Virus record (IMG/VR): IMGVR_UViG_3300029911_000121
Span: 1 to 27,462 of that record
DNA length: 27,462 nucleotides
Direction: 5' to 3' (one strand)
DNA from: a virus
Each line of letters begins with the position of its first letter. Position 1 is the stretch's first letter. Positions 11,989 through 17,128 of this stretch are shown here, one piece after another. The notes below the pieces were generated by a model that saw only the letters and a list, made by a program, of their open reading frames with translations, was not told the origin of the DNA and did no database searches. The translations under genes and the position numbers were made by a program.

Positions 11989-12218
11989 GGCTTCACCTCC
12001 CTGGATGGAGCGAAGCACTTCAGACGCCCAACCTCACGGCCATCGCTGGTAATGATGGCTCCGACAAGGGGAACGACGCCCAGTTCGGCATTGATCGCGT
12101 CGACCAGCACGGCAGCCAGGGACTTGACCTGTTCCGACCGGACCCCAAGCACTCGCCCCGGGCGGGCCTCGCGGTAACGGGCCTCCACTTTGGCCATGAT
12201 GTCTTCCAGGATCAGCAT
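11985..12218 (-). CDS. Small hypothetical protein
   Basis: A 77-residue product starting MLILEDIMAKVEARYREARP. An AAGGAGGT ribosome-binding site sits inside the end of the methyltransferase gene, and the two frames overlap by seven bases. Helices at the N-terminus and centre (SEQVKSLAAVLVDAINAEL) lead to a beta end (VPLVGAIITSDGREVGRLKC). Function unknown. Confidence 0.55.
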   Translation of the reverse strand: MLILEDIMAKVEARYREARPGRVLGVRSEQVKSLAAVLVDAINAELGVVPLVGAIITSDGREVGRLKCFAPSREVKP

Positions 12219-13591
12219 GTGACCTCCTTGCCGCCGCGCATGACCCGGGCGGTTCGGCCGGTGGCGTCCTGCCAGCGTTCCAAGATGCACTGGGCGAATT
12301 TGGGATCGAGTTCCAGGGAATTGCAGCGCCGGCCCATGGATTCACAGGTGATCAGGGTTGAGCCGGAGCCGCCGAAGGGATCCAGCACCAGCATCCCGGA
12401 GCGGCTGGAGTTCGTGATGGGCTTGCGGAGCAGCTCGACCGGCTTCTGGGTCGGGTGGCAGCGGTTCGCCAGTTCCCGGCCGCAGTTCCAGACCGTGGTC
12501 TGGGCTTTGTCGCCGCGCCAGAATTCCTTCTCTCCATTCCGGGCGGCGTAGATGACGGTCTCGTGGGCCGGGACATAGATCAGCGGCACCGCGCCATCCT
12601 TGGCGGCCAGGGCGACGGGCTCGTGCATCCAGCGATAGTGCTGGAAGCCATACCCGGCCTGATTCTTGGTCCAGATGATTTGGGTTTTGATGGTCAGGCC
12701 AGCGGAGGCCAGGCAGGACTCGAAGGTCGCATGGAGGCGGATGGGATAGAACACATAGAAGGCCGCGTCCTTCTTGGTTGCGGCCGACATCCCCAGGAAC
12801 GCCTTGACCAGGAACTGCCCGAATTCCTCGGGGGTCTGGTTGTCGTTCTTGATTTTCTTGGGGTTCTTGCCGGCCTTCCCTTGGGACTTGGCGACCCATT
12901 GGGGGGCCTCGTAATCGACGTTGTAGGGCGGGTCCGTCAGCACCATGTCGGCTTCCTCGCCATCCATGAGGAGAGCCAGGTTCGCCGGGTCGGTGCAGTC
13001 CGCCACCAGGAGGCGATGCTGACCTAGCAGCACCAGGTCTCCGAGCTGGATCCAGGGTTGCGCCGGGGGATCGGGAACAGCGTCGGGGTCGGCGCCATCT
13101 TTCAGGCCGGAGGCGTCCTGAGGGAACAGTTCCGCCAGGGCATCCGCATCAAATCCGGTCAGGTCCATATCGAAGGCGCCGGTATCCAGCTCCGCCAGGA
13201 TCGACTTCAGCTCCGGCAGCTTCCAGGTGGAAAGGTCGGTCAGGCGATTGTCCACCAGGGAGTAGGCGGCAGCTTCCTCGTCGGTCATCCGGGCCCAGAT
13301 CGCGGGCACTTCCGGGTCATCCTTTCCGGCGATGATCTTCAGGGCGGCCAGCCGACCGTGGCCGGCAACGCACATGTTGGTTCCCTCCTGGAGCAGGAAG
13401 GGGGCAATGAACCCGTGGCCCTTGATGCTTTTAACCAGGAGGGCGATCTGTTCGGCGTCGTGGGCCCGAGCGTTCATGTGGAACGGCACGATCTTGGACA
13501 GCTTGATCCGCCCCGCCCGGCCCCGGGAAAGGATGTCCTGGAGGTCCACGGAGGATTCCGATTCAGGCTCGGGCGAGGTTTTCTTGGGCAT
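12212..13591 (-). CDS. ParB-like domain fused to DNA methyltransferase
   Basis: A 459-residue two-domain protein. Residues about 28-118 form a ParB/Srx-type N-terminal domain: KLSKIVPFHMNARAHDAEQI, GHGFIAPFLLQEG and VAGHGRLAALKI, the GHgR motif. The rest is an N4-cytosine/N6-adenine methyltransferase with catalytic TDPPYN (219-224). HPTQKPVELL (379-388) comes ahead of the SAM-binding DPFGGSGST (404-412), so the motif order is DPPY before FGG, as in beta-class enzymes. Such fusions are common phage modification enzymes and protect the genome from host restriction. There is no cognate restriction endonuclease beside it, so it is probably an orphan methylase. The neighbouring HNH protein starts the same operon stretch. 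The stop-to-start junction is TAATG. Confidence 0.9.
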   Translation of the reverse strand: MPKKTSPEPESESSVDLQDILSRGRAGRIKLSKIVPFHMNARAHDAEQIALLVKSIKGHGFIAPFLLQEGTNMCVAGHGRLAALKIIAGKDDPEVPAIWARMTDEEAAAYSLVDNRLTDLSTWKLPELKSILAELDTGAFDMDLTGFDADALAELFPQDASGLKDGADPDAVPDPPAQPWIQLGDLVLLGQHRLLVADCTDPANLALLMDGEEADMVLTDPPYNVDYEAPQWVAKSQGKAGKNPKKIKNDNQTPEEFGQFLVKAFLGMSAATKKDAAFYVFYPIRLHATFESCLASAGLTIKTQIIWTKNQAGYGFQHYRWMHEPVALAAKDGAVPLIYVPAHETVIYAARNGEKEFWRGDKAQTTVWNCGRELANRCHPTQKPVELLRKPITNSSRSGMLVLDPFGGSGSTLITCESMGRRCNSLELDPKFAQCILERWQDATGRTARVMRGGKEVTC

Positions 13592-14554: not shown

Positions 14555-14739
14555 TGCGACACCCCGGCGATACCAAAGAGTGCTCTCGGTTAAGATCGTT
14601 GTCCAGTATGAGTTTTCGCCGTTTTGTGTTGTGTTTTGTAGTGCCGAAACGGGGGATTCTTGATTGTTTGTTTTTGTTTAAATTTTAAAATCACTTTTTT
14701 ACACAATGCCAAGGCAGTTGGTGGGGGAGACAAAGAGAA
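14555..14739 (-). promoter_or_regulatory. AT-rich gap, probable promoter region for packaging/head operon
   Basis: This is the longest AT-rich stretch in the window. It contains the palindrome ATTTTAAAAT (14682-14691), A-tracts and repeated ACAAAAC motifs upstream of the gene starting at 14554. Such a stretch could act as an UP element or a regulator-binding site. No convincing -35/-10 pair could be chosen. No gene is seen here. Confidence 0.4.
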
Positions 14740-14798: not shown

Positions 14799-16181
14799 CT
14801 AAAGCTGGAGACCCCTCTGTGACCCTCGGGAGTGGGCCTGGCCATCGCTTTCGGTTTCCCGTTCGATCTGCCGGAGGCGATTGAAGGCCCCTCGGAATTC
14901 CAGTTCCTGTTTCCAGCCGCTGGGGCCCGAGCGGTTTTTGGCCGACTTGACGTAGACCACCTTGGATTCAGCCTGTTCCTCCTGGGCGGCCTGTTCCTTG
15001 TCCCAGAGCATCCAGACCGCGTTGGCGTCTTCTTCCCAGGCCCCGGACTCCTTCAGGTCGGACAGCTTGGGCTCTCCTTCGGCGCCCTGCCGGTTGAGCT
15101 GGATCAGCGGGATGATGCAGATTCGCAGCTCCTGGGCGAGTTTCTTGATGCTCCGGGACAGGTGGGTCCAGCAAGCCGCGTCGTTGACGCCCTTCCCGAG
15201 GATCGGCTTGGCGATCAGCAGGACGTGGTCGATCCAGACGGAGGTCGCGCCGTGAACCCGCACCGCATCCCGGATGGCCGCCTCGACCATGGACCAGGAC
15301 ACCCCCGAGGGATGGCACCACGTCGTGATCCGGTCCAGAGTGTCGGCCTGGGCACAGATCGAGGTCACGCTGGAATCCTTCCAGGCGCCGGCCCGGAAGA
15401 CCTTGTAGCCCTCCAGGGTCTGCCATGCCGCCATGCGGGCGTCGATTTCATCCTCGTCCATTTCGAGCGAGATCAGGAACGGATGGCCTCCCATCTGGGC
15501 CGTCCTCCACACCCCCTGGACGGCGAGGGCCGACTTGCCGACGCCAGGCCGGGCCCCGACCGTGATGACGTGGCCGGCGGCAGCCTCCACCGCGTCGTCC
15601 ATCCGGGGCACCCCGAAGTGGGCCAGCTTTCCGCCCGCCGTCGCACAGCGGAAGGCTTCACCGGAGACGATCCGATCCATCAGGACGGTCCCTCGCCGGA
15701 TCTTGATGGCCGACGCACCGCTGGAGAGATTCGAGAGCTGGGTGGCCAGGGACGAGATAGCATCCCCGACCGGATCGGCGAAGTCCTGGGCCCGGCGGAT
15801 TGCCTCGGCGCCCAGCTTGATCAGTTCCCGGCCCCGCCAGAGGTTCGCCAGCCGCTCCACCAGCACCATCGGCCGGGCGACATCCTCGCCGCCCAGGATT
15901 TCGATCACACCAGAGAACCCGCCGACCCGCCCAAGGGTTCCCTGGGCCTCCAGCGTTGCCTTGATCGAGAGTGAGTTGATGTCTGCGGCATCGGCATAGA
16001 GGGCCTTGATGGCATTGCAGACGGCCTTGTTGACGGGGTGACTGAAATACTCCGGCTGCATCGCCAGGACGGCATGGTGGGCGTCGGCGTTGTCCGAGCC
16101 GGGGTCTAGGATTCCGGCCGCCCCCAGGGTTGCGAGGAGGGTCTTTTCGGCTTCGATGTCTTCAGGAACGATGATCGGCAT
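14799..16181 (-). CDS. dnaB: Replicative DNA helicase, DnaB family
   Basis: A 460-residue hexameric 5'-3' helicase of the replication fork. An N-terminal DnaB domain (about 1-110) starts PEDIEAEKTLLATLG and includes FSHPVNKAVCNAIKAL and VGGFSGVIEILGG. The RecA-like motor has Walker A GARPGVGKSALAV (209-221), the H1a-type SLEMDEDEI (238-246), Walker B VWIDHVLL (315-322) and PLIQLNRQ (358-365). It ends with the LSDLKESGAWEEDANAVWML pattern near 373-392 and a C-terminal KNRSGPSG loop. Length matches the family. The Walker A Lys and Walker B Asp are present, so it should be active. The initiator-like gene lies directly upstream, as in many phages with an origin inside the initiator gene. Confidence 0.92.
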   Translation of the reverse strand: MPIIVPEDIEAEKTLLATLGAAGILDPGSDNADAHHAVLAMQPEYFSHPVNKAVCNAIKALYADAADINSLSIKATLEAQGTLGRVGGFSGVIEILGGEDVARPMVLVERLANLWRGRELIKLGAEAIRRAQDFADPVGDAISSLATQLSNLSSGASAIKIRRGTVLMDRIVSGEAFRCATAGGKLAHFGVPRMDDAVEAAAGHVITVGARPGVGKSALAVQGVWRTAQMGGHPFLISLEMDEDEIDARMAAWQTLEGYKVFRAGAWKDSSVTSICAQADTLDRITTWCHPSGVSWSMVEAAIRDAVRVHGATSVWIDHVLLIAKPILGKGVNDAACWTHLSRSIKKLAQELRICIIPLIQLNRQGAEGEPKLSDLKESGAWEEDANAVWMLWDKEQAAQEEQAESKVVYVKSAKNRSGPSGWKQELEFRGAFNRLRQIERETESDGQAHSRGSQRGLQL

Positions 16182-16192
16182 TGATTTTCCTT

Positions 16193-17128
16193 TCAGGCTG
16201 ATTCGATGGTGGGCTCAGGGCCCGGAGGTGGAGTGGTGGCTTGCTTCTGGCGGACATGCCAGAGCAAGATCGCGTCTGGCAACCAGTTCGCGCCCTCGCC
16301 ATTGGATTGGTTCTCCTGCTTGCCGAAGTAGTACTGCGGAGCCTTGGTCTGCTTGGGTTTCCGGGCGAGATACATTTTCCAAGCTTCAACCAGGATGGTT
16401 CCGTCGAGTTTGGGGTGATCCTTCAGAATTTGGGTGATGCGCTGGGCCACCTTGCCGGGATCGACCGTGATCAGGCGCCCGTCACGATCCTCCGCCGGGG
16501 TGCATTTGGCGACTTCGTTGGTGGCCGTGGAGACCTCCAGGGAGTAGGCAACGAAGGGATCGACGTTGGTTGCCTCGGGCTTGGGCGTCCTCGGCTTCCT
16601 GGATCCCTTGCCCTTCCCCTTCGACTCCCCACCCGAACCCGAAGGGGTAGGGGTAGTTATCTCTTTTAGAGTTTGAGTTTGAGTTTGAGAGACGGGCGTG
16701 ATGTCCCCCATTTCGGGGTAGTTTTCCGCCCCCATTTCGGGGTCGTGTCCACTGTCCGTATCATGGTCATGACCATCCCCCATTTCGGGGTCTGATTCAT
16801 TTCCGTTTATCCTTGCAACAACTACCTTTCGTTGATATTTGGCGGCCTGTCTTTCGAGCCGTTCTGACCTCCAGCATTTGGCCGAATCATCCCAGGTGAA
16901 GAAGGTAGGAAACCACAGAACGTCATGCCTTACTTTGCGAACATCTGTCCTGGATCTCCGGCCGATCTCCACCGGATCTCCGGGCAATCTCCCGCCCATC
17001 TCCGAGCAAACTATCCAGTATCTAACTAGCCGACCAAACTGGTCGTCATTCAGAGCGGCGATGTCAACGTCACCCAGAACCTCCCGGCAGTAGAGGGCGA
17101 GGAACGGGCCAAGGGCGCGGGTGGACAT
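16193..17128 (-). CDS. Replication initiator-like protein with internal repeat array
   Basis: A 311-residue protein immediately upstream of the DnaB helicase. The N-terminus (about 25-100) resembles the DUF1376/replisome-organiser type: DDQFGRLVRYWIVCSEMGG, LPGDPVEIGRRSRTDVRKV and LWFPTFFTWDD. It is probably a winged-helix DNA-binding domain. Residues 113-144 are four 8-residue repeats (DPEMGDGH, DHDTDSGH, DPEMGAEN, YPEMGDIT), then QTQTQT and a Ser/Gly/Lys linker to about 185. A C-terminal helical domain (190-290) could bind the helicase. The lambda O protein has the same domain-linker-domain plan with origin iterons in the linker. The assignment is by context and layout; no catalytic motif is expected. 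Confidence 0.65.
   Translation of the reverse strand: MSTRALGPFLALYCREVLGDVDIAALNDDQFGRLVRYWIVCSEMGGRLPGDPVEIGRRSRTDVRKVRHDVLWFPTFFTWDDSAKCWRSERLERQAAKYQRKVVVARINGNESDPEMGDGHDHDTDSGHDPEMGAENYPEMGDITPVSQTQTQTLKEITTPTPSGSGGESKGKGKGSRKPRTPKPEATNVDPFVAYSLEVSTATNEVAKCTPAEDRDGRLITVDPGKVAQRITQILKDHPKLDGTILVEAWKMYLARKPKQTKAPQYYFGKQENQSNGEGANWLPDAILLWHVRQKQATTPPPGPEPTIESA
16671..16688. repeat. (GTTTGA)x3 hexamer repeat beside the iteron array
   Basis: Three perfect GTTTGA units lie directly next to the 24-bp array, followed by an AT-richer stretch with CTCTTTTAGAG (an interrupted palindrome, 16661-16671). In the coding frame they give Gln-Thr repeats. Their place is that of a possible unwinding element. 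Confidence 0.6.
16697..16792. repeat. Four 24-bp units inside initiator gene, candidate replication origin
   Basis: The 15-base core CCCCCATTTCGGGGT is identical at 16705, 16729 and 16777, i.e. steps of 24 and 48 bp. The missing position at 16753 holds a degenerate copy (9 of 16 matches). Each core is itself an imperfect palindrome (CCCC/GGGG around ATTTC). Regular 24-bp spacing puts the cores on roughly the same helix face (about 2.3 turns). Iterons inside an initiator gene, flanked by AT-richer DNA, are the known plan of lambda-type origins. Alternatively this is only a protein-coding minisatellite. Confidence 0.6.

Follow-up and report, generated by a model that had tools for sequence, protein, structure and literature searches.

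A candidate lambda-like replication origin inside a DUF1376-like initiator gene of a tailed phage

Does a repeat array in the middle of a phage gene serve the encoded protein, or is the DNA itself used as a replication origin? This question was raised by a window of 27,462 bases (the whole stretch of DNA that was analysed; IMG/VR virus record IMGVR_UViG_3300029911_000121), in which an open reading frame on the minus strand (16193..17128; product P0001, 311 aa) carries such an array. The gene directly downstream (14799..16181, minus strand) encodes a DnaB-type replicative helicase with matches to PF03796 (4e-35), PF00772 and PHROG 19, in agreement with the initial annotation, which had placed the array gene just upstream of a DnaB helicase. 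Elsewhere in the window, a DNA methylase (N6_N4_Mtase; 12212-13591, minus strand) was found whose N-terminus gave a weak ParB_N-like match.

The gene, its predicted product and its two repeat arrays

P0001 was predicted to consist of an N-terminal winged helix (residues ~28-111), a disordered linker (~112-190) and a helical C-terminal part. AlphaFold2 modelled the N-domain (112 residues) with a pLDDT of 79, a pTM of 0.67 and the element order H-E-H-H-E-E; in the full-length model, confidence was confined to this domain and the linker was predicted to be disordered. With hmmscan, P0001 had no Pfam match even at E 10, reaching neither the PF07120 (DUF1376) nor the PF04492 (Phage_rep_O) model, and no PHROG match was obtained. 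Alignment by hhalign of a profile built from P0001 and the homologue in its relative (see below) with three PF07120 proteins gave a probability of 90.6 (E 1.3e-6, 94 columns), and DUF1376 proteins were also the top viral fold matches of the N-domain in BFVD (best TMq values, 0.65-0.68), followed at lower rank by Lin1244-like and replisome-organiser proteins. PDB searches by sequence and by fold yielded weak matches only, mostly to winged-helix proteins; among solved structures, the N-domain came closest to AspA, a centromere-binding winged-helix protein (E 0.025). On profile and predicted fold, we describe P0001 as a distant DUF1376-like, putative initiator rather than as a PF07120 member. The earlier assignment of the repeats to the linker of a DUF1376-like protein thus stands for the linker and, at the level of profile and fold, for the likeness to DUF1376, and falls for Pfam hmmscan (E 10). 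Searches with tblastn returned zero matches to P0001 in phage or plasmid records and zero homologues in genome contigs, and the viral contigs searched held one contig identical at 100% and one diverged relative only.

The 15-base core CCCCCATTTCGGGGT was found at 16705, 16729 and 16777, as had been reported. Read on the minus strand, these sites comprise three exact copies of a 13-base core, CCCCGAAATGGGG, that is absent from the rest of the window. In gene order, dyad iteron 1 lies at 16778..16790 (gene position 338, the matching position in a 69%-identical relative), dyad iteron 2 at 16730..16742 and dyad iteron 3 at 16706..16718, 18 bp before a CAAACT tract (a distance of 17 bp in the relative). 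All three copies are dyads of the form CCCC-N5-GGGG, and the window dyads occupy gene positions 338, 386 and 410, with the arrays at 0.36-0.44 of the gene length. The fourth unit that the initial annotation had placed at 16753, in an array of exact 24-bp steps, was rejected: it matches the core at 8/15 positions and lacks a dyad, and nothing corresponding to it is present at this step in the relative. The layout is therefore one of three units spaced at 24 and 48 bp, and not of four at 24 bp. A perfect 14-bp palindrome between iterons 1 and 2 (ATGGTCATGACCAT, 16763-16776) is absent in the relative and was not counted as part of the array.

A candidate unwinding element, (CAAACT)x3 (CTAAAAGAGATAACTA; 16653..16692, minus strand), follows the iterons towards the C-terminal-coding end of the gene and includes the (GTTTGA)x3 tract previously noted beside the array, which is indeed present at 16669-16689. 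No 40-bp segment of the gene is less stable than this one, which ranks among the weakest 0.6% of the window, and its CAAACT tract is preserved in the relative with 8/9 codons identical. The A/T-rich tract following the iterons is modest in both length and composition (59% AT over 46 bp). The AT-rich intergenic stretch at 14600-14702, downstream of dnaB, has a stability below that of the CAAACT tract. Using a loose consensus, two DnaA-box matches were found in the window, none of them inside the initiator-like gene. GC skew across the window showed no switch at 16.7 kb, and is uninformative because most window genes share one strand.

A second array, which had gone unmentioned in the initial annotation, lies within the winged-helix coding sequence of the same gene and consists of six AGAT units at exact 11-bp steps (16943..17001, minus strand; GGAGAT in five units). 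It coincides with the top-scoring tandem array of the window as detected by TRF (16943-17009, score 63). Its units rotate through all three reading frames owing to the 11-bp step, so that a peptide repeat cannot underlie it, and they are borne by codons that are rare in this phage (AGA, 2% of Arg; ACA, 1.5% of Thr; TTG, 3.5% of Leu). The relative retains all six AGAT despite amino-acid differences within the units, as where ACA (Thr) is replaced by CTA (Leu) before the last GAT. In synonymous recodings that kept the protein and randomised the DNA according to phage codon usage, AGAT x6 was recovered in 0/20,000 cases for the window gene and in 0/20,000 for that of the relative. No other run of at least five equal tetramers with periods of 8-30 was present in the window or in the 8.9-kb locus of the relative. 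In both phages, three consecutive units of the array contain GATC.

Scanning for AGAT x5 at 11 bp retrieved 91 viral stretches, the majority of which were non-coding or near-perfect tandem repeats, and therefore only degenerate coding arrays were weighed. Whether the AGAT array of the window forms part of the same origin as the dyads, as a second iteron set or as an assembly or bending element, appears from these data to be about an even question. An unlikely but still serious alternative, concerning the AGAT array only and compatible with an origin at the dyads, is that it constitutes a separate partition (centromere-like), host-factor or bending site unrelated to initiation. Direct repeats of 11 bp are known from plasmid partition sites, and the weak match of the N-domain to the centromere-binding AspA would fit such a role. 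It is harder to square with the degenerate coding arrays of other phages, which reside mainly in winged-helix genes (Lin1244-like L187, L213 and L235; DUF1376 L239; L245 and L206), several of them preceding primase-helicase, helicase or loader-like ORFs, and no partition gene was noticed near the window array. The recoding values of these arrays are not independent proof, since the arrays were selected by pattern.

Conservation of the repeats beyond the needs of the protein

The dyads might be explained by the protein, if a PEMG linker peptide repeat (e.g. for partner binding) had grown by local duplication and left DNA identity as a by-product. In support of this, all three window copies share one frame and encode PEMG, and three identical 13-mers arose in 67/3000 recodings of the window gene (2.2%), which makes their identity only moderately unlikely, and weaker evidence for an origin, because the peptide repeat explains part of it. 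At least three CCCC-N5/6-GGGG dyads were obtained in 7/3000 synonymous recodings of the gene.

The diverged relative, IMGVR_UViG_3300042090_000646, came out of a search with a degenerate paired-dyad pattern, and its homologue of P0001 (69% protein identity) is also followed by a DnaB gene. The linker of this homologue harbours four dyads, at gene positions 338, 374, 398 and 422, with the sequences CCCCGAAATGGGG (twice), CCCCGAATTAGGGG and CCCCCATATCGGGG, and at least four dyads appeared in 0/3000 of its recodings. Two of these four units encode PELG and PHIG and nonetheless preserve the CCCC...GGGG arms, the PHIG-encoding CCCCCATATCGGGG being an inverted version of the motif. Among residues shared by the two proteins, codons were identical at 18/20 positions of the linker and CAAACT tract, as compared with 96/178 of the remaining ones (Fisher p 0.0012), a test that rests on one pair and few codons because the collections searched contained one diverged relative only. 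For this pair, the comparison of synonymous sites that the initial annotation had proposed as a check on an origin thus turned out positive. Sequence comparison shows the dyads and the AGAT array to be conserved beyond what the protein requires. The preserved arms of the PELG and PHIG units and the inversion of one of them argue against a repeat maintained for its peptide, as do the like dyads of other initiators, which fall in all three frames; the AGAT array would moreover be left unexplained. We therefore consider a purely protein-serving repeat to be quite improbable.

Comparison with oriLambda and with other initiator genes

The origin of phage lambda, oriLambda, lies inside gene O and comprises four iterons and an AT-rich tract, the iterons themselves being the origin (PMC3349717, PMC7466680), and the minimal O site is an inverted-repeat iteron, which O binds as an imperfect inverted repeat (PMC7466680). 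The lambda iterons (gene O, 39034-39118; CCCTCAAAACGAGGG and variants) display a C-rich arm, an A-rich centre and a G-rich arm, and their four CCC-N8/10-GGG dyads appeared in 1/3000 recodings; for lambda O the any-dyad test has little power, its arms being 3 bp long. The initial annotation had described the window repeats as differing completely from those of lambda, which has to be softened, since both share this C-rich/A-rich/G-rich dyad form. Both loci also carry their dyad iterons mid-gene, and the A/T-rich tract that follows the iterons in lambda may have its counterpart on the C-terminal-coding side in the window. In contrast to oriLambda, the window tract is shorter and milder, the winged helix resembles DUF1376 rather than Phage_rep_O, 13-bp cores at 24/48 bp take the place of 18-19 bp iterons at 20-24 bp, the next gene encodes a DnaB-type helicase instead of a P-type loader, and an extra 11-bp AGAT array is present.

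This order of elements also bears on the possibility that the dyads are regulatory, acting either as an autoregulation operator or as RNA hairpins through which translation of the initiator mRNA is tuned. Initiators often autoregulate, and the dyads could form small stem-loops in the sense strand. However, the sites are situated 340-420 bp into the gene, away from its start, one copy in the relative is inverted, the arms measure only 4 bp, and the succession of iterons and A/T-richer tract resembles that of oriLambda, so that a regulatory site seems very unlikely. We give equally little credence to a main origin elsewhere, such as the AT-rich gap at 14.6-14.7 kb, with the in-gene arrays merely titrating or handcuffing the initiator: the 14662-14701 segment, one of the least stable in the window, shares bases with a DnaA-box-like 9-mer (14697), but no iteron-like repeats were listed at 14.6-14.7 kb and in lambda the iterons are the origin.

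The module formed by genes 18 and 12 of phage P22 consists of an initiator and the phage's own DnaB-type helicase. Compared by gene order alone, the window resembles this module in that the initiator-like gene is directly followed by a phage DnaB homologue, and differs from it in the DUF1376-like N-domain of the putative initiator.

To place the window among other phages, genes were surveyed in a sample of 80 viral DnaB loci and two phage records, yielding 58 upstream genes, 81 dnaB genes and 169 others. Local iteron-like 10-mer repeats were found in 24/58 (41%) of the upstream genes, a class that is defined by position upstream of a phage DnaB and of which not every member was checked as an initiator, versus 1/81 (1.2%) of the dnaB genes and 7/169 (4.1%) of the others. 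Repeats significant by recoding followed the same distribution (33%, 1.2% and 2.4%, respectively), and frame-rotating hexamer runs occurred in 13/58, 0/81 and 3/169 genes. The repeat copies were mostly located at 0.3-0.57 of the gene, often 11, 22 or 33 bp apart and rotating through the frames, and many were dyads. The two-copy dyad pattern was detected in 86 viral stretches and its arm-swapped control in 20, and many carriers of the dyad pattern are initiators, including Phage_rep_O and HTH_36 proteins. Two loci with a PF04492 (Phage_rep_O) match, L103 and L105, carry iterons similar to those of the window. Dyads of the CCCCCAAAAAGGGG type, with a spacing of mostly 15-25 bp and in rotating frames, were seen in L094 and 20 clustered loci and in L103, L105, L123, L127, L131 and L145, the genes concerned belonging to large viral initiator-like families of the HTH_36 and Phage_rep_O types.

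Among DUF1376 genes, ydaU of the Rac prophage of E. coli K-12 (L291:3620-4477) was found to carry the dyad TGTT-NN-AACA three times in its linker (two copies of TGTTCAAACA and one of TGTTTGAACA; one of the three has an inverted centre), a pattern reproduced in 0/5000 recodings. YdaU (PF07120) is like P0001 in its predicted N-terminal fold, its profile similarity and the linker dyads of its gene. P0001 differs in remaining below the PF07120 model, in iteron sequence and in its next gene: DnaB follows in the window, whereas ydaU is followed by the gene for YdaV, a putative ATP-binding protein. An active origin, oriJ, is known in the Rac prophage (PMC3945230); the ydaU dyads are a candidate site for it. 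A literature search covering few subscription papers retrieved no paper linking DUF1376 to iterons.

Proposed mechanism and meaning for DUF1376-type initiators

With a probability of roughly 0.8, judged from sequence and from the analogy with lambda, we interpret the dyad array as a set of iterons bound by the initiator, within a lambda-like intragenic origin that lies in the DUF1376-like initiator gene of a tailed phage. In the mechanism that we propose, the O-like, DUF1376-type winged-helix product would bind the CCCC-N5-GGGG dyads within its own gene, probably as one dimer per dyad given the dyad symmetry. Several occupied dyads could then, as in lambda, assemble into an O-some-like complex that would open the adjacent, A/T-richer CAAACT tract. 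Subsequently, the C-terminal part might recruit the DnaB-type helicase that the phage itself encodes in the next gene, and so initiate theta replication, gene order being what suggests both the recruitment and the theta start.

More tentatively, and at somewhat less than even odds, the origin may be bipartite, combining the linker dyads with helically phased AGAT units in the codons of the DNA-binding domain. As both types of array seem to recur across unrelated phage initiator families, they might in turn reflect a shared recognition code or host partner for the large group of winged-helix initiators of the DUF1376 and Lin1244-like kinds. The AGAT array in itself shows that a signal at the DNA level can be superimposed on codons for a folded domain.

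For uncultured phage genomes, the combination of recoding and frame-rotation tests may offer a sequence-only route to origins. Phages and prophages commonly encode DUF1376 proteins, yet these are labelled as being of 'unknown function'; judging from the repeats described here, they would become candidate replication initiators with an origin nested in their own gene.
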